A DNA stretch of 64,000 nt, from NCBI GenBank assembly GCA_030066685.1, contig JASJBF010000001.1, positions 310,001 to 374,000 of the forward strand, written 5' to 3'. A model generated the notes under the pieces. The model was not told the origin of the DNA and ran no database searches. It was given only the letters and a program-made list of their open reading frames with translations. A program made the position numbers and the translations under genes. This DNA comes from Kiloniellales bacterium. GTDB taxonomy: Bacteria; Pseudomonadota; Alphaproteobacteria; Kiloniellales; JAKSBE01. This document shows, one piece after another, positions 7,804 to 61,506 of the stretch (the stretch's first letter is position 1; each line of letters begins with the position of its first letter).

Positions 7804-7827
7804 GCGGGCCATCGCGGGGAGGCAATC

Positions 7828-9210
7828 ATGGCGATTCAGATACTCATGCCGGCGCTGTCGCCGACCATGACAGAAGGCACGCTCGCAAAGTGGCTGGTCA
7901 AGGAGGGCGACAACGTCAACTCGGGCGACGTTCTCGCCGAGATCGAGACCGACAAGGCGACCATGGAGGTCGAGGCGGTCGACGAGGGCACCGTCGGCAA
8001 GCTGCTGATCGCGGAAGGCAGCGAGGGCATCGCGGTCAACACGCCGATCGCCGTCCTGCTGGAGGACGGCGAGGACGCCTCCGCGATCGAGGGCGCCGCG
8101 GCGGCGCCCGCAGCCGCGCCGGCGGAGGCGCCCGCCGAGACGCCGGTCGCGGCGCCGGCAGCGCCGGCCCCTGCGATCCAGACCGCGGCCGCGACTCCGG
8201 CGCCCGAGCCGGAGTGGACCGGCGAGACCGTGACCCTGACCGTGCGCGAGGCCCTGCGCGACGCCATGGCCGAGGAGATGCGCCGGGACGAGAAGGTCTT
8301 CCTAATGGGCGAGGAGGTCGCGCAGTACCAGGGCGCCTACAAGATCAGCCAAGGGCTGTTGGAGGAATTCGGCGCCAGGCGGGTAATCGACACGCCGATC
8401 ACCGAGATCGGCTTCGCCGGGCTGGGCGTCGGCGCCGCCTTCTACGGCCTGAAGCCGATCGTCGAGTTCATGACTTTCAACTTCTCCATGCAGGCCATCG
8501 ACCACATCGTCAACTCGGCGGCAAAGACGCTCTACATGTCCGGCGGCCAGATCTCCTCGCCGATCGTGTTCCGCGGGCCCAACGGCGCGGCCTCCCGGGT
8601 CGCGGCGCAGCACTCCCAGTGCTACGCCAGCTGGTACAGCCACCTGCCGGGGCTCAAGGTCGTCGCGCCCTATTCGGCGGCCGACGCCAAGGGCCTGCTG
8701 AAGGCGGCGATCCGCGACCCCAACCCGGTGGTCTTCCTGGAGAACGAGGTGCTCTACGGCCACAGCTTCGAGGTGCCCAAGGCCGAGGACTGGGTCGTTC
8801 CCATCGGCAAGGCCAGGATCGCGCGGCCGGGCAGCCACGTCACCATCGCCGCCTTCTCGATCATGGTCGGCAAGGCCCTGGAGGCGGCCGAGCTGCTCGC
8901 CGCCGAGGGCATCGAGGCCGAGGTCATCGACCTGCGCAGCCTGCGGCCCCTGGACAGCGAGACGGTGATCGCCTCCGTCCAGAAGACCAACCGCCTGGTG
9001 ACCGCGGAGGAGGGCTGGGCCCATGCCGGCATCGGCGCGGAACTCGCGGCGGTGATGATGGAGCAGGCCTTCGACTGGCTCGACGCGCCGGTGGCCCGGG
9101 TTGCGGGCAAGGACGTGCCCATGCCCTATGCCGCCAACCTCGAGCACCTCGCCCTGCCGCAGCCCGCCGACATCGTCGCCGCGGCCAAGGCGGTCACCTA
9201 CAAGAGCTAA
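7828..9210 (+). CDS. pdhB: pyruvate dehydrogenase E1 beta subunit with N-terminal lipoyl domain
   Basis: A 460-residue protein. Residues 1-80 are a biotinyl/lipoyl domain with the lipoylation site Lys43 in [11 protein letters not shown]. An Ala/Pro-rich flexible linker spans about 88-128. The transketolase-like E1 beta core starts near residue 135 ([17 protein letters not shown]) and continues to the transketolase C-terminal domain. Fusion of a lipoyl domain to E1 beta is known in alphaproteobacterial pyruvate dehydrogenases and gives the complex additional swinging arms. The lipoyl domain is nearly the same as that of PdhC just downstream, which suggests duplication within the operon. GGGGAGG precedes ATG 7828. 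Confidence 0.97.
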
Positions 9211-45207: not shown

Positions 45208-45688
45208 TCGTTCAACCTTCGCGTCGACACCGCGGCAGGAAGCGGTGAACCTTCTGCCACAGGTGCCTGCTTCGCGCAATCCGCGGTTTCGCACCACGGC
45301 GTTCCAGGCCCCGAAGGCCTTCGCCCGCCGCTCCCGGGACGGGACGGCGCCCGCTGCGGCGCTGCCCGGAGTCCTCCGCGAGGCGCCGAAACCCTACGCC
45401 GGCAAGCCCGCCCTTCAAACGTCCAGAGCACTCAGAGAAAGGCCGCCGCCCGGCGAGCCCGGAGGCCGCTCTACAGAAAGCCCTGATTCATTTCGATCTT
45501 TCCCGAGGCTATCTGGCTGTTTTTCTTGATTCAATTCAATTACGTGTACAGATTATTCTGCATTTTTATAGAAGCTTAACAATTAGTTTCTTCTTAAGAA
45601 TTTCATGTTTGATGGTAGTTCTGCAAATAAGACTTGCAACTATTTGTCTTTATTTGTTCGTTTTTCGGTTGCGGAGGGAGGTACTCCA
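45208..45688. promoter_or_regulatory. divergent intergenic region with AT-rich promoter stretch
   Basis: This 481-base gap separates the divergent mltB and first TadG-like genes. The left 260 bases have normal high GC and no supported gene. From about 45495 to 45665 the sequence is strongly AT-rich, with many A/T runs, very unlike the rest of the window. It likely contains the promoter for the TadG-like gene and could be a target for an AT-binding silencing protein. The final GGAGGGAGGT (45673-45682) is an unusually strong ribosome binding site for ATG 45689. Confidence 0.45.
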
Positions 45689-46972
45689 ATGCGGTTCCCG
45701 ATGTTCGCAAGAGCGCGCTCGGCCCTGCATCGCTACAAGCAGAACGAGGAGGGCACGGCCATCGTACTCCTCGGCTTCGCGGTCTTCGTCCTGGTCGGCG
45801 CGGCCGGCCTGGCCTTCGATGCCGGGCGCGGCTACATGCTCAACGCCAGGCTGAGCCAGGCCGTGGACGCCGCCGCCCTGGCCGGCGGCCGCTCGCTCAG
45901 CATCGGCAGCGGCGGCGATTACAAGGCAGTTATCAAGAAGTACTTCAAGGCCAACCTGCCCGACGGCTACATGGGCGCCGAAATCCCGGATCCCATCATC
46001 GAGCTGAAGGGCGATGGCGACGAGATCGAGGTCGTCGCCACGGCCACGGTGCCGACCACCCTGATGCGGGTCCTGGGCTCCAAGAGCATGAAGATCGACG
46101 CCCGGGCCGTGGTCCACCGGGCGGTCAAGGGGCTGGAAGTCGCCCTGGTGCTCGACAACTCAGGCTCGATGTCCGGCGGCAAGATGACCGACCTCAAGGA
46201 TTCCTCCAAGCTCCTGGTCGACATCCTCTACGGCGACAACGACGTCGTCGAGGACCTCTACGTCTCCATCGTGCCCTTCACCGGCCGGACCAACCTCAAA
46301 GGCCACACCCAGGTCCATCCGGTCGAACCGCCGCCGCCGAGCTCGACCTACATCTGCCTCGACATGCGCGGCGGGAACTTCGCCGAGAACGACGCGCCGC
46401 CGGTCACCAATCCCTTCGACCACTTCTCCAACGGGCCCTACACCTGGGAAGAGAATTCCACGAAGCACAAGGACAGGGTCTGTCCCAAGGCGGCGATCCT
46501 GCCTCTGGTCCAGAGCAAGTCCACGGTCAAGACGGCGATCAACGGCATGAAGGCCAAAGGCTGCACCCGCTACGACATCGGCACGGTCTGGGGCTGGCGG
46601 AACATCTCGCCCCGCTGGCAGGGGCTCTGGGGCGGCTCCCCGGGCAGCCTGCCATTGGCCTACGAAGAGGCCGACATGGAGAAGGCGATCATCATCATGA
46701 CCGATGGCGCCAACACGCCGGACTGCCTGAAGGATGTCCAGACGGAGGAGCAGACCGAGCAGGCCTTCTCCCGGATCTGCGCGGACATGAAGGCCAACGG
46801 TATCGTGATCTACACCATCACCTTCAAGCTCGACGATCCCGACACCAACGACCTTTTCCGCACCTGTGCCTCCGGTCAGGAGCGCTACTTCAAGTCGCCC
46901 TCCAGCGACGCGCTGGAGACCGCCTTCACGACGATCGCCAACGATCTCTCGACCCTGCGGCTGAGCCAGTAG
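45689..46972 (+). CDS. TadG-like pilus-assembly-type protein with vWA domain, copy 1
   Basis: A 427-residue protein. Residues 20-70 match TadE/TadG N-termini: EEGTAIVLLGFAVFVLVGAA is a single membrane span, then FDAGRGYMLNARLSQAVDAAALAGGR. A vWA domain follows, with an intact MIDAS D156-x-S-x-S in VLDNSGSMSGG, and the later ITMTDG-like IIIMTDGANTPDC. The span plus outward vWA domain fits the proteins that decorate Tad pili or act as adhesins, but no other tad gene is present. ATG 45689 is chosen for its strong ribosome binding site; the frame is open from 45605. It is closely related to the next two genes. Confidence 0.88.
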   Translation: MRFPMFARARSALHRYKQNEEGTAIVLLGFAVFVLVGAAGLAFDAGRGYMLNARLSQAVDAAALAGGRSLSIGSGGDYKAVIKKYFKANLPDGYMGAEIPDPIIELKGDGDEIEVVATATVPTTLMRVLGSKSMKIDARAVVHRAVKGLEVALVLDNSGSMSGGKMTDLKDSSKLLVDILYGDNDVVEDLYVSIVPFTGRTNLKGHTQVHPVEPPPPSSTYICLDMRGGNFAENDAPPVTNPFDHFSNGPYTWEENSTKHKDRVCPKAAILPLVQSKSTVKTAINGMKAKGCTRYDIGTVWGWRNISPRWQGLWGGSPGSLPLAYEEADMEKAIIIMTDGANTPDCLKDVQTEEQTEQAFSRICADMKANGIVIYTITFKLDDPDTNDLFRTCASGQERYFKSPSSDALETAFTTIANDLSTLRLSQ

Positions 46973-47335: not shown

Positions 47336-47488
47336 GCGCATGTAATTCTATATATTACTACCACAAATACCTAGATTATTTACTGCATGTTAAGAGATAA
47401 GGAGTGAAGTGTTTCTCTGCAGAGGGCCTTTTCACCAAATTTATTGGGCCTTTTATTTCCTTATTCTGGGGCGGGAGGCCCTGAAGAC
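47336..47488 (+). promoter_or_regulatory. AT-rich leader of TadG-like copy 2
   Basis: An AT-rich stretch (most marked 47340-47400 and 47430-47466) precedes copy 2, comparable to those before copies 1 and 3. A GCGGGAGG ribosome binding site lies at 47471-47478. I see no certain promoter boxes. Confidence 0.4.
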
Positions 47489-48766
47489 ATGCGCTCGTTC
47501 TTTCAATCCCGGTTTCGCCCGGCGGTGGGCCGCTTCGCCAAGGCGGAAGACGGTACGGCCATCGTCCTTCTCGGGTTTTCGGTCTTCGTCCTTGTCGGCG
47601 CGGCCGGCCTGGCCTTCGACGCCGGGCGCGGTTACATGCTCAACGCCAGGCTGAGCCAGGCCGTGGACGCCGCCGCCTTGGCCGGCGGCCGCTCGCTCAG
47701 CATCGGCGGCGGCGGTGACTACAAGGCGATCATCAAGAAGTATTTCAAGGCCAACCTGCCCGACGGATACATGGGCGCCGACGTTCAGGAGCCCACGATC
47801 ACGCTCAGCACCGAAGGCGACGAGATCGAGGTCTTCGCCACGGCCACGGTGCCGACCACCCTGATGCGGGTTCTGGGCTCCAAGAGCATGAAGATCGACG
47901 CCCGGGCCGTCGTCCACCGGGCGGTCAAGGGTATGGAAGTCGCGCTGGTGCTCGACAACTCAGGCTCCATGTCCGGCAGCAAGATGGGCGACCTCAAGGA
48001 CTCCTCGAAGCTCCTGGTCGACATTCTCTACGGCGACAACGAGACGGTCGAAGACCTCTATGTCTCGCTGGTTCCTTTCTCGGGCCGGACCAACGTGAAG
48101 GACCAGGTGGAGATCCATCCGACGTCCCCGCCGAACCCGGACTACGTTTGCCTCGACATGCGCAGCGGGACCTTCGCCGAGGACGACACGCCCCCGGCGA
48201 CAAGTCCCTTCGGGCACTTCTCGAACGGCGAATACACCCACGAGAACGATCCCGGCAAGTACAAGAGCAAGGTCTGTCCGAAAGCCCAGGTTACGCCGCT
48301 GATCCAGCCCAAGACGTCGGTCAAGTCCGCGATCGACGCCATGCAGGCGAAGGGCTGCACCCGCTACGACATCGGTTCGGTGTGGGGCTGGCGCAACATC
48401 TCGCCCGAATGGCGGGCTGTCTGGTCCGGCTCCAGCGCCAGCCTGCCCCTGGACTATGAAGAGGCCGACATGGAGAAGGCGATCATCATCATGACCGATG
48501 GCGCCAACACGCCGGACTGTCTCCAGGACGTCCAGACCCAGGAGGAGACCGAGCAGGCCTTCGCCCGGATCTGCGCCGATATGAAGGCCAACGGCATCGT
48601 GATCTACACGATCACCTTCAAGCTCGACGATCCCGACACCAACACCCTGTTCCGCGAATGCGCCTCGGGCGCGGAGCGCTACTTCAAGTCGCCCTCGGGC
48701 GACCAGCTGGAGGCCGCCTTCACGGCGATCGCCAACGACCTCTCGACCCTGAGGCTGAGCCAGTAG
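47489..48766 (+). CDS. TadG-like protein with vWA domain, copy 2
   Basis: A 425-residue paralogue of copy 1 with the same plan: a short basic start (MRSFFQSRFRPAVGRFAK), one membrane span with EDGTAIVLLGFSVFVLVGAA, the GRGYMLNARLSQAVDAAALAGG segment and a vWA domain with intact MIDAS DNSGSMSG and IIIMTDGANTPDC. Over roughly 145 bases (from 45790, and from 47590 here) the DNA differs from copy 1 at about seven positions, pointing to recent duplication or gene conversion. ATG 47489 is preferred over 47444 because of the nearby ribosome binding site and alignment with copy 1. Confidence 0.88.
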   Translation: MRSFFQSRFRPAVGRFAKAEDGTAIVLLGFSVFVLVGAAGLAFDAGRGYMLNARLSQAVDAAALAGGRSLSIGGGGDYKAIIKKYFKANLPDGYMGADVQEPTITLSTEGDEIEVFATATVPTTLMRVLGSKSMKIDARAVVHRAVKGMEVALVLDNSGSMSGSKMGDLKDSSKLLVDILYGDNETVEDLYVSLVPFSGRTNVKDQVEIHPTSPPNPDYVCLDMRSGTFAEDDTPPATSPFGHFSNGEYTHENDPGKYKSKVCPKAQVTPLIQPKTSVKSAIDAMQAKGCTRYDIGSVWGWRNISPEWRAVWSGSSASLPLDYEEADMEKAIIIMTDGANTPDCLQDVQTQEETEQAFARICADMKANGIVIYTITFKLDDPDTNTLFRECASGAERYFKSPSGDQLEAAFTAIANDLSTLRLSQ

Positions 48767-49018: not shown

Positions 49019-50296
49019 ATGAAGATCGCGGCGACTCAACGACTGCGGGACCGTCCAGCAAGCTTCCTTCGCGACGAGGGGGGCTCCGGCCTCGCTCTGA
49101 TCGCGTGGTCGATGCTGACCTTGGCGGCCGCCTCGGGCCTCGCTTTCGATGCCGGCCGCGGCTACCTCATCAAGGCCAAGCTCGGCCAGGCCGTCGATGC
49201 CGCAGCGCTCGCCGGCGGCCGGGCGCTGGCCGCCCGGGACGGCGCCCGCTACGAGTCCCAGATTATCAAGTATTTCAGGGCGAACTTCCCCGACGGCTAT
49301 CTGGGCGTCGCGGTCGCCGAGACCGAGCTCGACATCCGGTTGCGGGGCGAGAAGATCGAGGTCACCGCCTCGGTCGAGGTGCCGACGACGTTGCTGCGGA
49401 CGGTCAACATCCGGGGCTTCACCGTCTCGGCCAGCGCAGCGGTCAACCGCACGGTGCGAGGCCTGGAGATCGCCATGGTGCTCGACAACTCCGGTTCCAT
49501 GAATGGTCGCAAACTCAGAGAGTTGAAGGCAGCCGCGGATATTCTGGTCGAAGCCCTCTACGGCGACGGTGGGACGGCCGACAACGTCTACGTGTCCCTG
49601 GTGCCCTTCACCGCCCGCGCCAACGTCAAGGGCCAGGACAAGGTCCACCCGGGCAAGTCGCCCAACAAGGACTACGTCTGCTTCGACGTGCGTCCCGGCA
49701 CCCACGCGGTGGGTGACAGCAATCCCGTCGACATGCCCTTCGAGCACTACTCCGGGACCCTCTCGGCCGACAGGAACCCCAAGGCCTATGCCGACAAGAT
49801 CTGCCCGAAATCGGCCGTTCAACCCCTCACACGAAAGCGGGCCGAGGTCGAGGGCGCGATCAGGGACATGAAGGCGAAGGGCTGCACCCGCTACGACCTC
49901 GGGGCGGCCTGGGGCTGGCGCGCGCTCTCGCCCAAGTGGCGTGGCTTTTGGCAGGGCGTGGAGTTCGAGCAGCCCTTCGAGTACGGCGAGCAGGGCCTCT
50001 CCAAGGCGGTCATCATCATGACCGATGGCGAGAACACGCCCAAGGACTGTGCCCTCGATCTGGAGAGCAAGCAGGAAACCGAGGCGATGTTCGTCGAGGC
50101 CTGCCAGGGGATGAAGACCGAGGGCATCATCGTCTACACCATCACCTTCCAGGTCGAGGACGAGACCACCAACGCGATCTTTGAGAGCTGTGCGTCCGGA
50201 AGGGCCCGGGCCTTTCGCTCGCCCGACGGCGCCGAGCTGATCTCGGCCTTCGAGGAAATCGCCGGCGATCTCTCGACCCTGCGCCTGGTGCAGTAG
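49019..50296 (+). CDS. TadG-like protein with vWA domain, copy 3 (diverged)
   Basis: A 425-residue paralogue with the same order of parts: the span ALIAWSMLTLAAASGLAF, then DAGRGYLIKAKLGQAVDAAALAGGR, and a vWA domain with MIDAS DNSGSMNGRK and IIIMTDGENTPKDC. It shares the GCTRYDLGAAWGWRALSPKWRGFW block with the other copies but is considerably diverged, so it is the oldest branch of the tandem family. No clear intrinsic terminator follows. The next gene, a different vWA protein, begins 150 bases later. Confidence 0.88.
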   Translation: MKIAATQRLRDRPASFLRDEGGSGLALIAWSMLTLAAASGLAFDAGRGYLIKAKLGQAVDAAALAGGRALAARDGARYESQIIKYFRANFPDGYLGVAVAETELDIRLRGEKIEVTASVEVPTTLLRTVNIRGFTVSASAAVNRTVRGLEIAMVLDNSGSMNGRKLRELKAAADILVEALYGDGGTADNVYVSLVPFTARANVKGQDKVHPGKSPNKDYVCFDVRPGTHAVGDSNPVDMPFEHYSGTLSADRNPKAYADKICPKSAVQPLTRKRAEVEGAIRDMKAKGCTRYDLGAAWGWRALSPKWRGFWQGVEFEQPFEYGEQGLSKAVIIMTDGENTPKDCALDLESKQETEAMFVEACQGMKTEGIIVYTITFQVEDETTNAIFESCASGRARAFRSPDGAELISAFEEIAGDLSTLRLVQ

Positions 50297-50446: not shown

Positions 50447-51787
50447 ATGCGGGGTTGCTTTCTGCGGGCTTTACTGGGGCCGGCCTTGGCCGTCGCGCTC
50501 GCGTCTCCCTGCGGGGCCGAAGAAGCGCAAGACCTCGAATTCTTGCAGAATCGCCTGAGCAAGATCCTGGAGTTCGAGCCGACGGGCCGCGAAATCTCCT
50601 GGCGCAACCCGGGCACCGGCAACGACGGCCTCGTCATGGTGGAGCGCACCTATTTCCTGGACCCGAAGACGCCTTGTCGCGATTTCATCCTGACCTTGGA
50701 CCGTGGCGGCAGCGCGCCGCAGATTTTGCGCGGCACGGGATGCCGCAGCGAGGATGGCGACTGGCGGCTCGGCGCCGACGGCGAGCCGACGTTGTTGTCC
50801 GCAGTCGAAAGAGGCTGGGTCCAGGCGGGGCCCGAGTTCGACCGGGTCTACGATGACGAGCTGGTGCCCGACGACATCGACGGCTTTGAATTTGCCGACA
50901 AGGCCTTGCCTGCCGAACCCGCGCCGCCCTCGGAAAAGCTGGCCTTGCAGGACCTGGTGGCCGATGCCCGGCGCCTCGACGATTCAATCCTCCAGGATGC
51001 CACCGAAGAGATAGGGCCGGACGACCTGGCTTCGGCGGAGCTTGCGGCAGAGCTGAACGCTACGGCGGACCCACAGGCCCAAGCCGTTATCGCCCTGCCC
51101 GCCACCGGGCTTCTGCCCGAGCCAAACTGCACCGACTATCCTGTCGGGGGCCCGTCGGTCGAAGCCGAGGAACTCGACCTCGTGTTCCTGCTGGACACCA
51201 CCTCCAGCATGCGGTCCGAACTCGGCGACCTCAAGGCCGGCGTCATGTCCTCCGTCAGGGTTCTGCTGCGGATGGTCTCCAGCCTCAACATCGGCTTCGT
51301 GGCCTTCCGCGACCGGAACGATTCCTACGTGACCAGCGCCTTCCAGCTGACCCCGATGACGGAGGACAGCCTGAGGCGGCTCGAGATCTTCGTCGAGGGC
51401 CTCAAGGCCGGCGGCGGCGGCGATCGTCCCGAGGCCATCGACAAGGCGATGGGCGTGGCCAAGGACATGCCCTGGCGGCCGACGGCCCTTGGCCAGATCG
51501 TCGTGATCGGGGACGCCCCGGCGCACGCCGGCGCTCGGGGCCGGACCCTCATCATGGCCGAGAACTTCCGCGGCGACGTGCCCTCGAGCGCCGCTCGGCG
51601 CAAGGTCTCCGCAGTCTATACCGGCTCCGCGCGTCGGCGGGGTAGTCGGAAGTTCTTCCATCATCTCGCCAAACACGGCGGCGGTTGCTTCACGTCCGAC
51701 CCGCAAACGCTTGTCGAGAACGTGCTGCTCTCGGTCCTGGGTCGGGGACGGTCCAGGCCGGCAGAAGCCCTGCCGGGGCCCTCTTGA
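50447..51787 (+). CDS. secreted protein with 17-kDa-surface-antigen-like domain and vWA domain
   Basis: A 446-residue exported protein. A signal peptide ends near CGA-EE (residue 24). Residues 30-110 (ILEFEPTGREISWRNPGTG, TYFLDPKTPCRDF, GTGCR) resemble the RT0821/Lpp0805-type surface antigen domain. A disordered acidic region leads to a vWA domain from about residue 243 with MIDAS D250-T-T-S-S. The vWA core (IGFVAFRDRNDSY, GGGGDRPEAIDKAMGVAKDM, VIGDAPAHAG) is strikingly similar to the anchor-vWA protein at 56300-57286. It therefore looks like a periplasmic or surface member of the same system. Confidence 0.82.
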   Translation: MRGCFLRALLGPALAVALASPCGAEEAQDLEFLQNRLSKILEFEPTGREISWRNPGTGNDGLVMVERTYFLDPKTPCRDFILTLDRGGSAPQILRGTGCRSEDGDWRLGADGEPTLLSAVERGWVQAGPEFDRVYDDELVPDDIDGFEFADKALPAEPAPPSEKLALQDLVADARRLDDSILQDATEEIGPDDLASAELAAELNATADPQAQAVIALPATGLLPEPNCTDYPVGGPSVEAEELDLVFLLDTTSSMRSELGDLKAGVMSSVRVLLRMVSSLNIGFVAFRDRNDSYVTSAFQLTPMTEDSLRRLEIFVEGLKAGGGGDRPEAIDKAMGVAKDMPWRPTALGQIVVIGDAPAHAGARGRTLIMAENFRGDVPSSAARRKVSAVYTGSARRRGSRKFFHHLAKHGGGCFTSDPQTLVENVLLSVLGRGRSRPAEALPGPS

Positions 51788-52077
51788 CGGCCTGGCAACC
51801 GGAACCGATGTTCCTACGCAACGCCGGTAATATGCGGGTCGCATAGAGGACACAAGCGGCCCAACGTCGGAGCGCGCCCTATTTCTTATATATTTCAATA
51901 AATTACGCTGGAGACTTTCGCCGCCAATGGAGCGCCGTTGCCGTGCGACCGCCGTCCGAAGCCGAGGTCTTGGTCACAAGGATGCGACTGCCGCCGCTAG
52001 GATTTAGATGGTATATTTGCCGGTAAAGCGGGCTTCTTGCCCGCCGTTTGCCGTGCACGACAAAAAGGGGTTGTCTC
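51788..52077 (+). promoter_or_regulatory. intergenic leader with long hairpin
   Basis: The 290-base gap contains an AT-rich patch (51880-51905) and, at 52021-52053, a hairpin: GCGGGC/GCCCGC with a 5-base loop, extended after a 2-base bulge by CGGTAAA/TTTGCCG with one G-T wobble. It lies 24 bases before the chosen TTG start of the next gene. No T tract follows, so it could act as a leader structure affecting translation. No other gene is seen. Confidence 0.4.
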
Positions 52078-52734
52078 TTGGCTAAGACGGTTCGATCGGC
52101 GTTTCATCCAGGCACGAACAAACAGTCCCCGGACAGGATCTTGGCCGTGGTCGCGCTCAGCTTGGCCCTGCTCGTCCCGGCGAGCCTTCAGGCCCAGGAG
52201 GACGCGGCGGCCGCGGACCGGGCCTATCTGGAGAAGCGCCTCAGGAAGATCCTGGAGTTCGAGCGGACCGGCGCCGAGGTCGTCTGGACCAATCCCGAGA
52301 CCGGGAACAGCGGCAAGATACAGCTGATGCGCACCTATTTCCTCGATCCCAAGACGCCCTGCCGGGACTACCTGCGGACCATCGATTCCACTGCCGGCGA
52401 GCCGGTGTCGGTGCGAGGGACTGGCTGCCGCGAGGCGACCGGCGGCTGGAAGCTGACCGAGGATTCCAAGCCGAAGCGTACCGTCAAGCGCGGCGATAAG
52501 GGAAGCAAGACGGCGGCAGCCACCCCGGGCGGAAGCGATCCGACCGCCAAGGCGCCGGCCGGTGCCGGGGGCGCGCCTGATGGCAAGAAGCCCAAGCCCC
52601 CTTCTGCTAAGAAGAAGAAGCCCGCCGCGCCGGCCAAGGCCGTTGCCAAGGCCCCGCCCCCGCCGCCGAAGATCTCGGCGCGAGTGCCGAGCCGGCCGCC
52701 GGAATGGGAGGCCGCCGACGACAATGCCTACTAG
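52078..52734 (+). CDS. exported protein with 17-kDa-surface-antigen-like domain and basic Pro/Lys tail
   Basis: About 218 residues from TTG 52078 (AAGGGG upstream); TTG 52048 is possible. A signal sequence (ILAVVALSLALLVPASLQAQ) precedes a domain homologous to that of the 50447-51787 protein: ILEFERTGAEVVWTNPETG, RTYFLDPKTPCRDY and GTGCRE. From about residue 135 the protein is low complexity, rich in Lys, Pro and Ala, ending in basic-proline repeats that may contact cell wall or partner proteins. Its last 11 bases overlap the kinase gene, so the two are probably translated together. Confidence 0.78.
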   Translation: MAKTVRSAFHPGTNKQSPDRILAVVALSLALLVPASLQAQEDAAAADRAYLEKRLRKILEFERTGAEVVWTNPETGNSGKIQLMRTYFLDPKTPCRDYLRTIDSTAGEPVSVRGTGCREATGGWKLTEDSKPKRTVKRGDKGSKTAAATPGGSDPTAKAPAGAGGAPDGKKPKPPSAKKKKPAAPAKAVAKAPPPPPKISARVPSRPPEWEAADDNAY

Positions 52735-54916
52735 CTACGAGGCCGATGCCGGCGCCCTGTCGCCCTTCGCCGGCGGGGACCCCAGGGACCTCGCGCCCGG
52801 GGCCGACGTCGACGGCTTTCAGATCCTGGGCATTCTCGGCCGCGGCATCTATGGCGTGACCTACCTGGCGCGGGAAGCGACCCAGGGCGCGAAGGCGGCA
52901 ATCAAGCTCTTCCAGCCGGACCCCGGCAGCCTGCAGCCCCTGGCCGCCGATGACGATCCCGGCGCCTCGGCGCTGGCCGCCTTTCGTCGCGAGGCGGCGA
53001 TCCTCGGGCGCCTGGACCATCCCAACATCGCCCGCTGCCGCGATTTCCGCGACAGCCGCGAGCGCCCCTACATCGTGCTCGAGCCCGAAGAGGGGCACAG
53101 TCTCGCGGCGGCCCTGGTCGCCGTGCCCGAGGCCTTCAACGAGGACCGGCTGCATCGAATCCTGGTGCCCCTGCTGGATGCACTTTCTCATTTGCACGCC
53201 AAGGGGATTTTGCATCGGGACATCAAGCCGTCGAACATTCATCTGCGGCCGGACGGCAGCCCAGTCCTGCTCGACTTCGGCGCTGCAGGCGAACTCGTCG
53301 GCTCCTCGGGCAAGACGGATCCCGTGAGCTGCCTGACACCGGGCTTCGCGGCACCGGAGCAATACCAGAAAGCTGGTCACGAAGGCCCCTGGACCGACAT
53401 CTACGGCTTGGCGGCCGTGGCCTATCGGGCGGTGACCGGCAAGATCCCGCCGGACGCCCGGGACCGGCTGAACGGCGCGAAGATGCTGCCGGCCCGAAAG
53501 CTGGGCGCCGGCCACGCGTCGCCGGCCTTCCTGGCCGCCATCGACTGGGGTCTCGCCCTGACGCCAGGCAAGCGGCCGCAGAGCGCACAGGATTGGACCA
53601 AGGCCCTGGCCGTCGCCGCCGGTGAGCCGGGCAAGCAGGACCTGACGCCGGCCGCAGAGTCTGGCGAAGCCGAAGAGGCGGCCAAGGACGCCGATCTGGA
53701 CGACGTCCCTCCGACCCAGCGCATCAAGCGCGAGCCGGGCGTGAGCGACACCTTCTACGTCGAGGGGCCCCGGGCTCAGGTCGCCGGCCCAGGCACCGCG
53801 CGGCCTCGGGCCAGCCGGACGCCGGTCGGTCTGATCTTCGGGATCTTGTTCATCGTCGGCCTGACCGGTGGCGGCTGGGCCTATTGGCAGTGGACGGTCC
53901 TTCAGAACAAGACGGAATGGACGGTCGACCCGGCCGGCCGGGGCGACACCGCGACCATCGAAGCGGCGCTCGCCCAGGCCAGGGACGGCTCGACGATCCG
54001 GATTCAACCCGGCACCTACGAGGAAAGCCTGGTCCTGTCGCGTCCGGTGACGATCGAGGCGGTCTCGGCGGACCCCGCGGACACCGTGATCGCGCCGAGC
54101 AGCGGCAGCTGCCTGACCGCAACCGCGGAGACTGGCAAGCTGTACGGCCTGACGCTCCGCAAAGCGCCCGGCGGCGGCGGCGAAGGCTGCGTGCTTCTGG
54201 TCGGCAGCAATCTGACCCTGGCCAACAGCGTGATCGAAGCCGAGGGCACGCCCGCCGTCATCCTGCACAGCGGGGGCGCCGCGACGCTCAAGGACCTCGA
54301 GATCAAGGTCTCGGGCGGCGTGCCCGCGGTGGTCGTCTCCAACGGCGCCCGGGCCCGCATGTCCGACAGCAGCATCGCCGGCGAGGCCGCGGTCGGCCTC
54401 CTGGTGCGCCGGGGCGCAGCGCCCGAGGTCATCGGCAACGAGATCAAGGGGACCAAGCGCGCGGGCATGATCCTGGAAGCGGGCGCGGCCGGTCGCTTCG
54501 AAGGCAACCAGATCATCCAGAACGCCGGCACCGGCGTGGTGATCCGCGGCGGCTCGCGACCGGTCTTCGCCAAGAACCGGATCGAATCAAACGGCGAGGC
54601 CGGGGTCTTCATCTACGAGGGCGCGCGCGGGGAGCTCGACAGCAACGTCGTGACCCGCAACGGCGGCTCCGGGATCATCGTCGGTGAGGGCGCAACCCCG
54701 CTTCTTCGCAAGAACGAAGTGCAGGACAACGGCGACCACGGGATCCTGCTCCTGGAGCGGGCCGGTGGCCGGCTCGAGGGCAACCGGGTCAAGTCCAACA
54801 AGAGGTACGGTCTGGCCATCAGCGTCGATGCCGCGCCGGACCTGAGCGAGAATGAGGTGACCGGAAACGCGAGCGGTCAGACAAAGAAAGGCAAGATCGC
54901 GACGGAGGGCAAATGA
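52724..54916 (+). CDS. transmembrane Ser/Thr protein kinase with extracytoplasmic beta-helix domain
   Basis: A 730-residue protein. Residues 32-300 are a Hanks-type kinase with glycine loop GRGIYG, Lys61 in AAIK, Glu90, catalytic HRDIKPSN (164-171), DFG (184-186) and APE (210-212), all intact, so it should be active. A juxtamembrane region with Thr-Gln and acidic clusters precedes a single span (about 367-389). Beyond it, residues about 398-725 show the repeating G-N-x-I/V pattern of a right-handed parallel beta-helix (pectate-lyase/NosD-like), a likely ligand- or polysaccharide-sensing domain. The neighbouring FHA proteins are natural readers of its phosphothreonines. Confidence 0.88.
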   Translation: MPTSYEADAGALSPFAGGDPRDLAPGADVDGFQILGILGRGIYGVTYLAREATQGAKAAIKLFQPDPGSLQPLAADDDPGASALAAFRREAAILGRLDHPNIARCRDFRDSRERPYIVLEPEEGHSLAAALVAVPEAFNEDRLHRILVPLLDALSHLHAKGILHRDIKPSNIHLRPDGSPVLLDFGAAGELVGSSGKTDPVSCLTPGFAAPEQYQKAGHEGPWTDIYGLAAVAYRAVTGKIPPDARDRLNGAKMLPARKLGAGHASPAFLAAIDWGLALTPGKRPQSAQDWTKALAVAAGEPGKQDLTPAAESGEAEEAAKDADLDDVPPTQRIKREPGVSDTFYVEGPRAQVAGPGTARPRASRTPVGLIFGILFIVGLTGGGWAYWQWTVLQNKTEWTVDPAGRGDTATIEAALAQARDGSTIRIQPGTYEESLVLSRPVTIEAVSADPADTVIAPSSGSCLTATAETGKLYGLTLRKAPGGGGEGCVLLVGSNLTLANSVIEAEGTPAVILHSGGAATLKDLEIKVSGGVPAVVVSNGARARMSDSSIAGEAAVGLLVRRGAAPEVIGNEIKGTKRAGMILEAGAAGRFEGNQIIQNAGTGVVIRGGSRPVFAKNRIESNGEAGVFIYEGARGELDSNVVTRNGGSGIIVGEGATPLLRKNEVQDNGDHGILLLERAGGRLEGNRVKSNKRYGLAISVDAAPDLSENEVTGNASGQTKKGKIATEGK

Positions 54917-55025
54917 GGCGGGCCGGGTATTCGGCGGAGGCAATCTGGACGTGCGGCAGACGCCGGCTGGAGCGACGCGACCCGGATCGCGGCGGCGTTC
55001 CGGCCATCTTGTTCGGGAGGGCGGG

Positions 55026-55463
55026 GTGAAGACGGTCGTTGTTGGGCGCAGTCCCTACGCCGACGTGGTCCTGGCCGACGCCTCGGTGGCTCGGCGTCAT
55101 GTCGAGGTCGTGATCACCGACGACGGCCGCTACTTCGTGACCGACTGCGCCACGGAAACGGGGTGCTGGCGACGGGTATCGGCCGATCAGGGGCGCGACC
55201 ATTGGGAGAAGCTGCGCCAGAGCTTCGTATCGATGGAGGATCACCTCAGACTTGGCGACCATCACTGCACCCTGAAGGATCTGCTGCGCGACGTCGACCT
55301 CCGCGACTCCGCCGAGACCGGCCCCGGTGGCGGCGGTGCCGGGCGCGGCGGCGATGCCCACGGCGGCGGCGCGGCGGGCGGCGCCGACCGTCGCATCGAG
55401 AGCCTGCGCGGCCGGGTCGAGCGTGATCCCGTGACCGGCGAGATCATTCCCAAGAGGCTGTAG
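55026..55463 (+). CDS. FHA-domain protein 1
   Basis: A 145-residue protein from GTG 55026 (GGGAGGGCGG upstream). The FHA core has VVVGRSPYADVVLADASVARRHVEV, with Gly-Arg, Ser and Arg-Arg-His, which bind phosphothreonine in this family. The usual Asn-Gly-Thr element is replaced by ATETGCWRR, so affinity may differ. A Gly-rich linker and a conserved-looking end (RVERDPVTGEIIPKRL) follow. The frame is open from GTG 54951, which would add a basic 25-residue stretch. Its stop is two bases before the MotA/TolQ-like gene. Confidence 0.82.
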   Translation: MKTVVVGRSPYADVVLADASVARRHVEVVITDDGRYFVTDCATETGCWRRVSADQGRDHWEKLRQSFVSMEDHLRLGDHHCTLKDLLRDVDLRDSAETGPGGGGAGRGGDAHGGGAAGGADRRIESLRGRVERDPVTGEIIPKRL

Positions 55464-55465
55464 GC

Positions 55466-56293
55466 ATGGCTGAGAGCGTTCTACCCCATCAGGATCTCGA
55501 GCAACGGGAGCGACCGCGGCACCACTACAGCCGCAACATCTTCGCGCACCTGCTGATCCTTTTCGGCGCTCTGATCGCCGGCCTGCTGACCATTCTCCTG
55601 TTCCACAACGTGCTGCCCGACACCGCGGCCGAGATCCTGATCGACCGCGACCGGGAAAGCTATCCCTTCACCGTGCAGAACGTGATGTGGATCGTGTTCT
55701 TCCTGGGCCTGGGGGAGCTGGTGGTCCGGGTTCGCGACGCCATCGCGGAACGCGGCCAGGTGCAGGAGGGCTATCTGCCGGAGGACGAGCGCACCATCCT
55801 CCAGACGCCCGAACTGCGCCAGATCTACAACCACGCGCGTCTCGTCTCCGGGCCCGGCGGTGTCGCCGAGGGCCGCTTCTTGCCGCGCCTGATCCAGCGG
55901 GTGGTTCTGCAGTTCCAGACCAGCCGCTCGATCGACCAGGCGAACTCCCTCCTGAACTCCAGCCTGGAGCTCTGCCTGCACGAGATCGACCTGCGCTACA
56001 ACATGGTCCGCTACGTGGTCTGGGTGATCCCGACCCTCGGCTTCATCGGCACCGTCGTCGGCATCTCCCTCGCCCTGGCCTACGCCGGCTCGGTCGACCT
56101 CCAGGACCCGACCCTGCTCGCCGAGCTGACCAAGCGCCTCGGCGTGGCCTTCAACACCACCCTGCTCGCGCTCTTCATGTCGGCGATCCTGGTCCTGGTC
56201 CAGCATGTCGTGCAGGCGCACGAGGAGCGCGCCCTGAACCTGGCCGGCCAGTACTGTCTCGACAATCTGATCAACCGCCTCTACGAGGAGTGA
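55466..56293 (+). CDS. MotA/TolQ/ExbB-type proton-channel protein
   Basis: A 275-residue inner-membrane protein with four predicted spans: about residues 25-47, 70-90, 183-206 and 225-250. The third contains IPTLGFIGTVVGIS, the defining P-x-L-G-x-x-G-T-V-x-G pattern of MotA/TolQ/ExbB proteins, and the fourth GVAFNTTLLALFMSA, also family-typical. The roughly 90-residue cytoplasmic loop between spans 2 and 3 is the usual site of signal or torque coupling. In known systems five such subunits surround two MotB/ExbD subunits and use the proton gradient. The adjacent gene encodes a matching partner, six bases downstream. Confidence 0.9.
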   Translation: MAESVLPHQDLEQRERPRHHYSRNIFAHLLILFGALIAGLLTILLFHNVLPDTAAEILIDRDRESYPFTVQNVMWIVFFLGLGELVVRVRDAIAERGQVQEGYLPEDERTILQTPELRQIYNHARLVSGPGGVAEGRFLPRLIQRVVLQFQTSRSIDQANSLLNSSLELCLHEIDLRYNMVRYVVWVIPTLGFIGTVVGISLALAYAGSVDLQDPTLLAELTKRLGVAFNTTLLALFMSAILVLVQHVVQAHEERALNLAGQYCLDNLINRLYEE

Positions 56294-56299
56294 TCGGCG

Positions 56300-57286
56300 A
56301 TGCACTCGCGCCAGAGGCGGAACCTCGAGGTCATCAGCATTTCGGCGCTGGACCTCTTCGCCTCGGCCCTCGGCGTCTTCATCCTGATGTCGGTCGTCCT
56401 GTTCCCCTACTACCTCCGCCAGCCCTCGACGGAGCAGGAGTTGCAGGGCGCGCGCGCCAATCAGGCCGCGTCGGGGGTCTCGCTCTCCGAAGCGCGCCAG
56501 GTCGCGGAGGACGCCCAGGACGCCATGGCCGAGGCCGAGGCCCGGCGCAGCAAGGCGCGTGACGAGCTGCAGCGCGCCGAAGCTTCCCTGGCCGAGGCCG
56601 AGCAGGTGAGACTGGTTGCCGCCCGCCGGGTCAAGAAGGAGCCGGAGAAGAAGGCCGCCGACGACACAGAGAAAGGGCGGCTCAATATCGGCGACCTGGA
56701 CATCGTCTTCGTGGTGGACACCACCAGCAGCATGAAGCGGGAGATCGCGGATGTTCAGGCGAGCCTCCTCGGGATCATCCGGGTGCTGCACCGCCTGGCG
56801 CCCAGTCTCAACGTCGGCTTCGTCGCCTATCGGGATCGGAGCGACGCCTACCTGACGCGCACCTTCCAGCTCGCTCCCATGACCGGCAACAATCTCAGGC
56901 GGATCCAGGCCTTCGTCGAGCGCCTGAGGGCGTCCGGCGGCGGCGACGTGCCGGAGGCCGTCGACAAGGCGCTCGGCGTGGCCAAGAACATGCCCTGGCG
57001 GTCGACCGCCCTCGGCTGGATCATCGTGGTCGGCGATGCCCCGGCGCACGCCGGCGCCCAGAGCCGGACCTTCGACATGGCCCGGAACTTCCACGCCTAC
57101 GCGCCTGCCGGCGTGGTTCAGCGCCGGATCTCGGCGATCTTCACAGGCAACGAAAGGCGGCGGAGCAGCCGGAGGTTCTTTCAGCAGCTGGCCAAGTCCG
57201 GCGGCGGCGACTACGTCAACCACCGGGGCCGCATCATCGAGAGCGTCCTTTTGTCGATCCTGACCCAAGAGCCCTCGTCGTCGTGA
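56300..57286 (+). CDS. MotB/ExbD-like membrane anchor fused to a vWA domain, protein 1
   Basis: A 328-residue protein. The N-terminus has a single span, SALDLFASALGVFILMSVV (residues 15-33), with Asp18 at its edge, where ExbD, TolR and MotB carry their proton-binding Asp; PYYLR follows. A helical Ala/Glu/Arg-rich segment (about 55-112) likely forms a coiled coil. The C-terminal vWA domain has MIDAS D140-T-T-S-S and VGFVAYRDRSDAY, nearly the same core as in the secreted protein at 50447-51787. If topology follows ExbD/MotB, the vWA domain lies in the periplasm, where the known families have OmpA-like or TonB-binding domains. Confidence 0.85.
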   Translation: MHSRQRRNLEVISISALDLFASALGVFILMSVVLFPYYLRQPSTEQELQGARANQAASGVSLSEARQVAEDAQDAMAEAEARRSKARDELQRAEASLAEAEQVRLVAARRVKKEPEKKAADDTEKGRLNIGDLDIVFVVDTTSSMKREIADVQASLLGIIRVLHRLAPSLNVGFVAYRDRSDAYLTRTFQLAPMTGNNLRRIQAFVERLRASGGGDVPEAVDKALGVAKNMPWRSTALGWIIVVGDAPAHAGAQSRTFDMARNFHAYAPAGVVQRRISAIFTGNERRRSSRRFFQQLAKSGGGDYVNHRGRIIESVLLSILTQEPSSS

Positions 57287-57308
57287 TGTTGTTCCAAGGG
57301 CGGAGGAT

Positions 57309-57689
57309 ATGAGCGACTATCACAATCGTCTGAATTCGGACCTCGAGACCGGCTGGTGCCTCGAGGGCAGCGACGGGGAGGACAAGAAGGTTCGCCTCTT
57401 GATCGGCGACACCCAACTCGGCCGCGCGACCCTGGGCCTGACCCTCGGCCGCCACGGCGCGCTCTGCGACCTGGTGGTCGAGGATCCCACGGTTTCGCGC
57501 CGGCATCTGCGGATCGGCCGGGGCAGCGAGGGGCTCTTCGCGGAGGACACCAATTCCCTGAACGGCACCCTGCTCGACGGCGCCAGGTTGCGCCCCTTCG
57601 AGCCGGTCAAGCTCTACGAGGGCGCCCAGCTCACGCTCGGCGCCACGGTCTTGACCTTGAGCCGGGTCGCCGAACCGGCCTTCGCCTAG
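57309..57689 (+). CDS. FHA-domain protein 2
   Basis: A 126-residue, essentially one-domain protein with a canonical FHA site: LTLGRHGALCDLVVEDPTVSRRHLRI (in parts GR, SRRH) and then EDTNSLNGTLLDG with the Asn-Gly-Thr element. It should bind phosphothreonine peptides. No membrane span is seen, so it is cytoplasmic. CGGAGG precedes ATG 57309. It lies between the two anchor-vWA genes (22 and 15 bases from them), as expected for a connector between the kinase and the membrane complex. Confidence 0.9.
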   Translation: MSDYHNRLNSDLETGWCLEGSDGEDKKVRLLIGDTQLGRATLGLTLGRHGALCDLVVEDPTVSRRHLRIGRGSEGLFAEDTNSLNGTLLDGARLRPFEPVKLYEGAQLTLGATVLTLSRVAEPAFA

Positions 57690-57704
57690 ACCGGAGGGCG
57701 CGCC

Positions 57705-58679
57705 GTGCAGCGGCCGTCGCGCGAGACCTCGATCTTCAACATGTCGGCGCTCGACCTGCTGGCCATGGCGACCGGCACCTTCGTGCTGATCGTGGTGATT
57801 CTGCTGCCCTACTACCGCAAGGAGTTCGACGCCCACGCCGAGATCCTCGACCTGAAGGCCGCGACCGAGACCCAAAGCGCGGAGGCCGAGGATATCTTGC
57901 AGGCCGCGGTTGCCGAGGCCCGAGCCGCCGCGCAGATGAAGTCCGAGGCCGAGCAAATGCGCAACGCCGCGGCCGAGGCCCGGGCCGCCGCCGCCTCGCT
58001 GCGCCAGGAGGCGGACCAGCTCGACGCGCAGGGCGGCAAGACGGAAAAGAAGGCGGAGAAAAAGAACGCCACCCTGGTTCCCAAGACCATCGAGAAGCTG
58101 GACCTGATCATCGTCATCGACACCACCTCCAGCATGGTGGAGACCTTGAAGGACCTGCGCCTTTCGATCCACGGCCTGATCCGGATCCTCGAGCGCCTGG
58201 TGCCGTCCCTGCGGATCGGCGTCGTCGCCTACCGGGATCACGATTTTGGTACCTGGGTCACGCGCAGCCTGCAGCCGACCTCCACCGAGCGCCAGCCGAA
58301 GGAGATCTACGATTTCGTCGGCCGCCTGAAGCACGCGGCCCGAGGCGGTCCGACCCCGCGCGAGGCCGTCCATGCCGGTCTCAACCGCGCCGTTTCAATG
58401 TCGCTGCGGCAAGACGCACAGCAGACCATCATTCTGGTCGGCGACGCCGGCCCGCATAAGGAAAAGGAGAGGTCCACCCTGCTGCTGGTGAAGCGCTTCG
58501 CCGAAGGCGGCCCCAACCGCAACGTCAGCGCGCACTTCGTGGAAACCCGCTCCTACCGGTCCTTCGGCACCAACGATAGGAACTACTTCAAGAAGCTGGC
58601 CGAGGTGGGCCGCGGGGAGTTCAGCGACCAGCGAGGCAGCATGATCGAGAAAGTGCTGCTGGCCGTCTTGAAGGAATAG
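57705..58679 (+). CDS. MotB/ExbD-like membrane anchor fused to a vWA domain, protein 2
   Basis: A 324-residue protein with the same plan as the 56300-57286 protein: the span SALDLLAMATGTFVLIVVIL (residues 14-33) with Asp17 and then PYYRK, an Ala/Glu-rich coiled coil (about 43-118) with repeated EAR and EAE words, and a vWA domain with MIDAS D139-T-T-S-S. The vWA part is more diverged (RIGVVAYRDHDFGTW). The start is GTG 57705 after CCGGAGGG. Two unequal anchors with one channel gene suggest a heteromeric 5:2 complex or two alternative outputs. Confidence 0.85.
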   Translation: MQRPSRETSIFNMSALDLLAMATGTFVLIVVILLPYYRKEFDAHAEILDLKAATETQSAEAEDILQAAVAEARAAAQMKSEAEQMRNAAAEARAAAASLRQEADQLDAQGGKTEKKAEKKNATLVPKTIEKLDLIIVIDTTSSMVETLKDLRLSIHGLIRILERLVPSLRIGVVAYRDHDFGTWVTRSLQPTSTERQPKEIYDFVGRLKHAARGGPTPREAVHAGLNRAVSMSLRQDAQQTIILVGDAGPHKEKERSTLLLVKRFAEGGPNRNVSAHFVETRSYRSFGTNDRNYFKKLAEVGRGEFSDQRGSMIEKVLLAVLKE

Positions 58680-59526: not shown

Positions 59527-59845
59527 GGCCTCTCTTCCCCATCTAGATTTAGTCTCACTAACTATAGTGCCGCCCGCAGCGCCCCACCAGTGCGGTGGTG
59601 CGCTTTGTTCAAGCGATCTCACCCCAAGCCATAATCCTAAAGATATTAACATGTTCTGTGAAGAAATTCATTTATTTTCTCAATAACGGTCCCAGACTGC
59701 TCACGCGCGATTGAACTTGGTCACGGGTCTCGAGGCCCAAGCTGCCCGAGGCGCCGGGCGCCATCATCGGCCGGATCCTGCCCTCGACCCAATTCTCCCT
59801 TGCCTGGCAGGGCGATCCTCCGCAAGCTTGCGCAGGGAGGCAGCG
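59527..59845. promoter_or_regulatory. divergent region between the lipoprotein gene and pqqB
   Basis: The 319-base gap has an AT-rich centre (59620-59690) suited to divergent promoters. A hairpin (arms 59579-59588 and 59594-59603, one mismatch) is followed by TTTGTT on the plus strand. CGCAAGCTTGCG at 59821-59832 is a perfect 12-base palindrome directly before the pqqB ribosome binding site GGGAGG. I looked here for a pqqA gene (a short peptide with the Glu-x3-Tyr motif) and found none. Confidence 0.45.
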
Positions 59846-60775
59846 ATGAAGGTCCTGGTGCTCGGCGCCGCCGCCGGTGGCGGCTTTCCTCAATGGAACT
59901 GCAACAGCGCGCTTTGCCGACGGGTCCGCGAGGGCGATCCCGCGGCCAAGCCGCGCAGCCAGTCCTCGATCGCGGTCTCGGCAGACGGCGAGCGCTGGGC
60001 GGTGTTCAACGCCTCGCCCGACCTGCGCCAGCAGTTCAACGACAATAGGGCGCTTCACCCCAGGGAGGGCCTCAGACACACGCCCTTGGGCGCGGTCGTC
60101 CTGACCAACGCCGACGTCGACCACGTCGCGGGCCTTCTGACCCTGCGCGAGCGGCAGGCCTTTGCACTCTACGCCAGCCGGCGGGTGCAGGACGCCCTGG
60201 CCGCAAACCCGATCTTCAACGTGCTGCATCCCGACTACGTGGCGCGGCGGGCTTTGGAACTCGGCCAGGCCACGCGGATTCGGGACGGTGCCGGCGACGA
60301 CCTCGGGTTGCTGGTGACGCCCTTCGCGGTTCCCGGCAAGGTGGCGCTCTACCTGGAAGACGAGGCGGCCGGTCCGGACTTCGGCACGCAGGAGGGCGAC
60401 ACCATCGGCCTGAAGATCGAAGCCAGCGGGGGAGAGACCGGCTTCTACTACATCCCCGGCTGCGCCGCCGTCGACGGCCCCTTGGCGGAACGGCTTCAAG
60501 GCGCGCCGCTGGTCCTGTTCGACGGCACGCTCTACCGCGACGACGAGATGGTCGACGCCGGCCTCGGCAGCAAGACCGGCAGGCGGATGGGCCACATCAG
60601 CATCTCCGGGCCCGAGGGCTCGCTCGCCGCCTTCGACGGCCTCGGGGTCCGGCGCCGCATCTACATTCACATCAACAACAGCAACCCGGTGCTGCTCGAG
60701 GACTCAGAGGAGCGCCGGGCCGTGGAGGCCGCGGGTTGGGAGGTGGCCTACGATGGACAGGAGATCGAGCTGTGA
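59846..60775 (+). CDS. pqqB: pyrroloquinoline quinone biosynthesis protein PqqB
   Basis: A 309-residue metallo-beta-lactamase-fold protein beginning KVLVLGAAAGGGFPQWNCNS, the PqqB hallmark, with FNASPDLRQQ, TNADVDHVAGLLTLRE and HININNSNP-like IYIHINNSNPVLL. PqqB acts as an oxygenase on the tyrosine-glutamate intermediate in PQQ synthesis. ATG 59846 follows GCAGGGAGG. It is followed with a 4-base overlap by pqqC. The rest of the pathway is not adjacent. Confidence 0.95.
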   Translation: MKVLVLGAAAGGGFPQWNCNSALCRRVREGDPAAKPRSQSSIAVSADGERWAVFNASPDLRQQFNDNRALHPREGLRHTPLGAVVLTNADVDHVAGLLTLRERQAFALYASRRVQDALAANPIFNVLHPDYVARRALELGQATRIRDGAGDDLGLLVTPFAVPGKVALYLEDEAAGPDFGTQEGDTIGLKIEASGGETGFYYIPGCAAVDGPLAERLQGAPLVLFDGTLYRDDEMVDAGLGSKTGRRMGHISISGPEGSLAAFDGLGVRRRIYIHINNSNPVLLEDSEERRAVEAAGWEVAYDGQEIEL

Positions 60776-61506
60776 GTGACCTGCTCAGCCCCGCGCAGTT
60801 GGAGGCCCGGCTGCGCGAGATCGGCGCGACCCGCTATCACAACCTGCACCCCTTCCATAAGCTTCTGCACGCTGGCGAGCTGAGCAAGGGCCAGGTCCAG
60901 GCCTGGGCGCTCAACCGCTACTGCTACCAGGCGACCATCCCGGTCAAGGACGCGACCCTGATCGCCCGGCTGGAGGATCCCGAGCTTCGGCGGATCTGGC
61001 GCCAGCGCCTGGTCGACCACGACGGGGACGAGCCCGGGACCGGCGGCATCGCCCGCTGGCTGGCCCTCGCCGAAGGCCTGGGCCTCGACGTCGGCTACGT
61101 CAAGTCGCAGGACGGCGCCCTCCCCGCCACCCGTTTCGCGGTCCGGGCCTACGTCGCCTTCGTGCGCGAGCGCAGCATCCTGGAGGCCATCGCCTCCTCC
61201 CTCACCGAACTCTTCTCGCCGACCATCATCGCCGAGCGGGTCTCCGGCATGCTCGCCGGCTACGACTTTGTCAGCGAGGAGACCCTCGCCTACTTCAACG
61301 CCCGCCTGACCCAGGCCCCGCGGGACGCGGATTTCGCCCTGGCCTATGTGTTGGAGCGGGCCCGCTCGCCGGACCAGCAACGCGCTGCGATCCGCGCCCT
61401 GGAGTTCAAATGCAGCGTGCTCTGGGCCCAGCTCGACGCGCTCTATCACGCCTACGTTGCGCCGGGGCACGTGCCGCCGGGCGCCTTCCAGCCCGACGAG
61501 GTTTGA
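60772..61506 (+). CDS. pqqC: pyrroloquinoline-quinone synthase PqqC
   Basis: A 244-residue helical oxidase performing the last ring-closure and eight-electron oxidation in PQQ formation. Typical segments are TRYHNLHPFH, WALNRYCYQATIPVKDA, RLVDHDGDE and LFSPTIIAERVSGM. GTG 60772 overlaps the pqqB stop (GTGA). After the stop no pqqD or pqqE follows; the next gene is convergent, 195 bases away, and that gap shows nothing recognisable. Confidence 0.95.
   Translation: MSDLLSPAQLEARLREIGATRYHNLHPFHKLLHAGELSKGQVQAWALNRYCYQATIPVKDATLIARLEDPELRRIWRQRLVDHDGDEPGTGGIARWLALAEGLGLDVGYVKSQDGALPATRFAVRAYVAFVRERSILEAIASSLTELFSPTIIAERVSGMLAGYDFVSEETLAYFNARLTQAPRDADFALAYVLERARSPDQQRAAIRALEFKCSVLWAQLDALYHAYVAPGHVPPGAFQPDEV

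Follow-up and report, generated by a model that had tools for sequence, protein, structure and literature searches.

A TolQ-like channel gene linked to paired vWA proteins with an invariant membrane-helix aspartate: a candidate envelope motor in a Kiloniellales bacterium

The closest described relatives of the system reported here are the transpore-helix (TPH) vWA proteins, which were predicted in 2025 from a seed in Idiomarina (PMC12204202; Mol Biol Evol 2025, msaf138). Genes for these proteins lie adjacent to a tolQ-like gene, occur without tolR or exbD, and come as heterologous pairs. In AlphaFold3 models the transpore helix is predicted to insert into the channel pore, where its conserved Asp forms a pair that sits in a threonine ring. 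A sister vWA family with an SHLS motif was proposed to act as TolA/TonB-like transducers outside the channel. The main text of PMC12204202 makes no mention of kinase, PP2C or FHA (forkhead-domain) genes. Two further machines offer a comparison. ZorAB of the Zorya phage-defence system is a 5:2 motor in which the ZorB Asp is required (D24 in type I, D21 in type II; PMC11890865). The AglRQS gliding machine of Myxococcus is encoded by one TolQ-like ring gene and two axle genes, and the machine includes an FHA protein, GltG (PMC3169522).

The locus analysed here lies in a window of 64,000 nt from a Kiloniellales bacterium (GCA_030066685.1, contig JASJBF010000001.1, positions 310,001-374,000 of the forward strand). 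All genes of the operon are on the + strand of the window. The first encodes a secreted vWA protein whose N-terminal domain is 17kDa_Anti_2-like (50447-51787), and the second a secreted protein with the 17kDa_Anti_2-like domain only (52048-52734). They are followed by a Ser/Thr protein kinase that has a transmembrane segment and ends in a right-handed beta-helix (52724-54916; Pfam Pkinase 118.5 bits, Beta_helix 128.6 bits), an FHA-domain protein directly 5' of the channel (54951-55463; Pfam FHA 35.4 bits), the MotA/TolQ/ExbB-type channel subunit P0003 of 275 aa (55466-56293), the anchor-vWA protein P0001 of 328 aa (56300-57286; Pfam VWA_4 40.6 bits), another FHA-domain protein (57309-57689; Pfam FHA 61.1 bits), and the second anchor-vWA protein P0002 of 324 aa (57705-58679; VWA E 7e-5). 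The preliminary description placed the channel gene between the two anchor genes, which is incorrect: it lies upstream of both, and the gene between them encodes the FHA protein. The core gene order was seen again within the genus and elsewhere in the Alphaproteobacteria. The vWA domain of the first secreted protein is 54% identical to that of P0001, and this protein is a possible periplasmic or outer-membrane partner. The kinase, encoded upstream of the channel, is presumably a periplasmic sensor. Just 5' of the operon are three tandem genes for similar secreted vWA proteins with TadG-like N-termini (45605-46972, 47444-48766 and 49019-50296, +); the third, which was the one tested, gave Tad and VWA matches. 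Two ORFs 3' of the operon (59711-61506, +) resemble pqqB and pqqC by sequence appearance.

P0001 and P0002 are very likely axle (B) subunits in an ion-driven motor of the 5:2 type, with P0003 as the ring (A) subunit. We favor this reading because the Asp at the start of the anchor helix is invariant and the sole charge there, anchors and channel co-occur, the channel has the fold and threonines of this motor class, the helix persists in relatives whose vWA domain has been replaced, no PF02472 (ExbD/TolR) match was found in the operon, and the AlphaFold3 model of PMC12204202 shows a corresponding arrangement. By the traits described in that paper, the locus is a further example of the motor type predicted in 2025. 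Membrane-anchored vWA genes lie beside a TolQ-like channel gene, and the Asp stands at the helix start in 72/72 rows of a wide alignment. The heterologous pairs also have their counterpart, namely the two paralogues in the window and two anchors per channel in 15/15 genomes. Likewise, there is no tolR or exbD beside the channel, as no scanned operon protein matched PF02472; the single match in this genome lies beside TolQ on contig C2. The locus differs from the described TPH-vWA systems in that kinase, PP2C and FHA genes are linked to it and some relatives carry a non-vWA domain.

The resemblance extends to the classical motors. ExbBD and TolQR share a same-fold ring with pore threonines and a single-span partner with an Asp near the helix start, but the anchors have no PF02472 periplasmic domain, carry vWA in its place and come as two paralogous partners. 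In MotAB and PomAB the Asp is likewise followed by a helix start rich in small residues (DFVTAMMAFFL versus DLFASALGVFIL), whereas P0003 is nearer to TolQ/ExbB than to MotA and the anchors have neither a MotB_plug nor an OmpA-type wall-binding domain. Pfam scans of P0001, P0002 and 44 anchors gave no ExbD/TolR (PF02472), MotB_plug or OmpA-type match. AglRQS also combines one ring gene, two axle genes and an FHA protein, but AglQ and AglS are PF02472 proteins and not vWA anchors. When the anchor helix was compared with TolR and MotB by hhalign, Asp fell on Asp in an alignment that 120 of 200 (TolR) and 5 of 200 (MotB) column-shuffled profiles equalled, and the MotB-TolR pair scored equally low, which shows that the comparison has little power. 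The equivalence with the Asp of ExbD, TolR and MotB that had been proposed from the N-termini stands to the extent that Asp aligns with Asp; the comparison did not show homology beyond that. The conclusion that the anchors work like ExbD/TolR/MotB axles is nevertheless well supported. When PDB sequences were searched with the anchor-helix profile, nothing beyond chance matches came up, and these were insect odorant receptors (LDLFASVLGAV, E 1-2.4); the motif without its gene context is therefore not diagnostic. Elsewhere in the same genome (contig C24, - strand) there is a second non-canonical channel gene (7457-8215; locus L044) with a small single-span partner (6865-7479). The partner reads FRDVILLALAGFVAMVILLLPHLNPP, again with an Asp at the helix start, and has no ExbD match.

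The channel subunit belongs to the MotA/TolQ/ExbB superfamily (PF01618, 42.8 bits against a cut-off of 22.9). It has a TolQ-like three-helix core with one additional N-terminal helix. Fold comparison was used for it because a profile search of PDB sequences found no match. The AF2 model (pLDDT 84) resembled TolQ most closely (Z 14.6 and rmsd 3.4 A across 206 residues), with ExbB next, followed by ZorA and MotA. The top 19 structural rows were all TolQ, ExbB or ZorA, on a scale where chance Z for helical models can near 13. The best Foldseek rows were also all from this superfamily, with no single E-value below 0.001. Thr196 (56051-56053) is the equivalent of the first TolQ pore threonine and aligns with the Thr of GLFGTVWGI in the TolQ of the same genome. 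Thr231-Thr232 (56156-56161) is the equivalent of the second, with Thr232 aligning to the Thr of LFATALGL. All three positions are Thr in 32/32 relatives aligned there.

The N-terminus of P0001 reads MHSRQRRNLEVISISALD(18)LFASALGVFILMSVVLFPYY, and that of P0002 reads MQRPSRETSIFNMSALD(17)LLAMATGTFVLIVVILLPYY. Both starts are preceded by purine-rich ribosome-binding sequences; P0002 has a GTG start with a Shine-Dalgarno-like GGAGGG 5' of it. The shared motif SALDLxAxAxGxFxL...PYY and its coordinates had been described correctly, and so had the residue numbers of the Asp at the helix start, Asp18 in P0001 (codon 56351-56353) and Asp17 in P0002 (codon 57753-57755). In the AF2 model of P0001, a membrane helix of 24 residues (16-39; 56345-56416) is followed by a stalk, also helical (44-112), and from residue 133 by the vWA domain; confidence in the helix is modest (pLDDT about 55-72). 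The PDB matches of the anchor model are vWA and integrin domains. A plasmid search with P0002 was set aside: its only matches were to annotated cutinases of Rhodococcus, in their vWA part. The positive-rich N-terminus suggests that the vWA domain lies in the periplasm, and this placement fits with the close vWA relative encoded at 50447-51787, a secreted protein. The vWA metal site (DxTxS plus a second Asp) is intact, as D140, T142, S144 and D246 are invariant in 14 close relatives and D140 and D246 in 40 anchors.

The anchors are tied to the channel by linkage and co-occurrence. Running a channel alignment against genome contigs gave 33 loci in Alpha- and Gammaproteobacteria, plus records labelled Deltaproteobacteria and Acidimicrobiia. 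Of 398 Pseudomonadota genomes, 15 had the channel and 21 the anchor helix. Every channel genome had exactly two anchor matches beside the channel, except that in one the second was on another contig. The six anchor matches in the 383 genomes without the channel were marginal (E 0.004 to 0.01), and chance alone would give about as many; the co-occurrence has a Fisher p of 9e-23. One locus counts against the axle reading. In Thiomargarita (L055, 9554-12487) the order is FHA-channel-FHA-PP2C, with the PP2C and FHA matches above cut-off, and no anchor gene lies within 10 kb on either side. Taken with the invariance of the Asp, the invariant channel threonines and the published AlphaFold3 model (PMC12204202), linkage and co-occurrence support the tie between Asp and channel that was drawn from the sequence of the window.

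Do the two anchors share one axle? P0001 and P0002 are paralogues with 36% identity from end to end. The two anchors fall into distinct lineages in every one of three groups of vWA systems. By their vWA parts, the two partners are each other's closest relatives, whereas a weak signal from the helices points to the reverse pairing across two groups. One ancient duplication was tested with trees: A+C and A+D were rejected by those built from full-length sequences and from vWA domains (p 3e-6 to 9e-11), but with the helix alone A+C was weakly preferred and A+B was not rejected. The pattern could be accounted for by repeated independent duplication or by homogenisation of vWA domains. The strongest rival to a shared axle is that P0001 and P0002 each form a homodimeric axle of their own and that the two axles take turns on a single ring. 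The axles of MotB, ExbD and TolR are dimers of one protein, which speaks for it. Against it, the paralogues persist as separate lineages in each vWA group and are kept 1:1 with the channel, and AglQ and AglS show that one ring gene can come with two axle genes (PMC3169522). We regard homodimers as plausible, though less probable than even.

The independent evidence for the Asp is its conservation across relatives. The agreement between P0001 and P0002 does not amount to two independent observations because the two are paralogues. In an alignment of 44 distinct anchor N-termini, the Asp was the sole invariant column out of 46. A wider search found it in 72/72 rows (45 distinct cores), with Glu or Asn never in its place; many of these rows come from related species and are not independent events. 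From D-6 to D+16, none of the 72 rows has a charged residue other than the Asp. Distant anchors of the SFLDI and AFLDI types (FTISFLDIISSAFAAVVLL or FNIAFLDIMASGLGAIIL) retain it. Furthermore, when single-span proteins near the channel were listed without requiring an Asp, every anchor found carried one. The Asp is thus real, invariant and coupled to the channel, and its loss among homologues, named in the preliminary description as one result that would overturn the idea, was not observed. Could the Asp be purely structural? It might serve in a helix capping box (Ser15-x-x-Asp18, with the Asp at N3) where the membrane segment starts, and have no role in ion flow. The AF2 helix begins at residue 16, which would make Ser15 the N-cap, and Ser is common at D-3 (58/72 rows). 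However, the other 14 of the 72 rows, where D-3 is Ala, retain the Asp, Glu or Asn never takes its position, and the channel retains its threonine ring. Capping as the whole explanation is therefore unlikely.

The helix behaves as a module of its own. Among full-length vWA anchors with identity down to 20%, only ten residues are invariant. Six of these lie within the helix or beside it (S15, D18, A21, F27, P36 and Y38); the four others belong to the vWA domain and include Asp140 and Asp246 of the metal site. In six loci (L064, L072, L073, L074, L076 and L077) the Asp-bearing helix is joined to another C-terminal domain, and those scanned gave no vWA match; in two of the six, the exchanged domain shows DUF2135 similarity below threshold. 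As the helix is kept though vWA is replaced, it is a conserved module under stricter constraint than the domain it carries. It could be argued that the anchors are TolA/TonB-like force transducers on the exterior of the channel and that the axle is some other protein, as was proposed for the sister vWA family with the SHLS motif (PMC12204202). This is very unlikely for P0001 and P0002, as they have neither that motif nor a His in the helix, their invariant residue is an Asp, and no other ExbD/TolR-like axle gene was seen in the operon. Membership of the Zorya defence motors, to which weak profile matches (ZorA2 to the channel, E 3e-6; ZorB1 to P0001, E 0.007) and the presence of ZorA among the structural matches of the channel (Z 11.4) might point, was rejected as highly improbable: the channel ends directly after its last helix with no long cytoplasmic ZorA tail, the anchors have no OmpA-type cell-wall domain, and no ZorC, ZorD or ZorE effector was seen among the scanned operon proteins.

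How would the axle proposed here work? A P0003 pentamer would hold two anchor helices in its pore, probably one from each paralogue. Asp18 and Asp17 would be protonated and deprotonated, or would bind Na+, beside the ring of Thr196 and Thr231/232. Ion entry may then turn the ring against the axle. The coiled coil would pass this motion to the periplasmic vWA domains, which, with their metal site intact, may grip a partner in the envelope. Genes for signalling proteins recur around the channel, with an FHA gene in 24/33 loci of channel relatives and a Ser/Thr kinase or PP2C gene in 20/33; the linkage is not universal and was unseen in Robiginitomaculaceae-type loci. It suggests control by phosphorylation, and the FHA proteins and the membrane Ser/Thr kinase would probably gate the motor in this way. 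In the literature searched, no vWA/TolQ system was described as carrying FHA, PP2C or kinase genes. The complete picture, in which a heterodimeric vWA axle of a 5:2 ion motor is switched by the co-encoded kinase, PP2C and FHA proteins and carries an exchangeable periplasmic domain while the Asp helix is kept, is offered tentatively.

Three features are new relative to PMC12204202, namely the kinase/PP2C/FHA links, the swapping of the vWA domain, and the paralogous axle pairs in each group of systems. The locus would extend envelope motors beyond flagella, Ton, Tol and gliding by a family that has no known job. It makes two points testable: that a 5:2 axle may be built from two different proteins, and that such a motor may be gated by phosphorylation. 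The invariant Asp provides a clean single-residue test in every relative.
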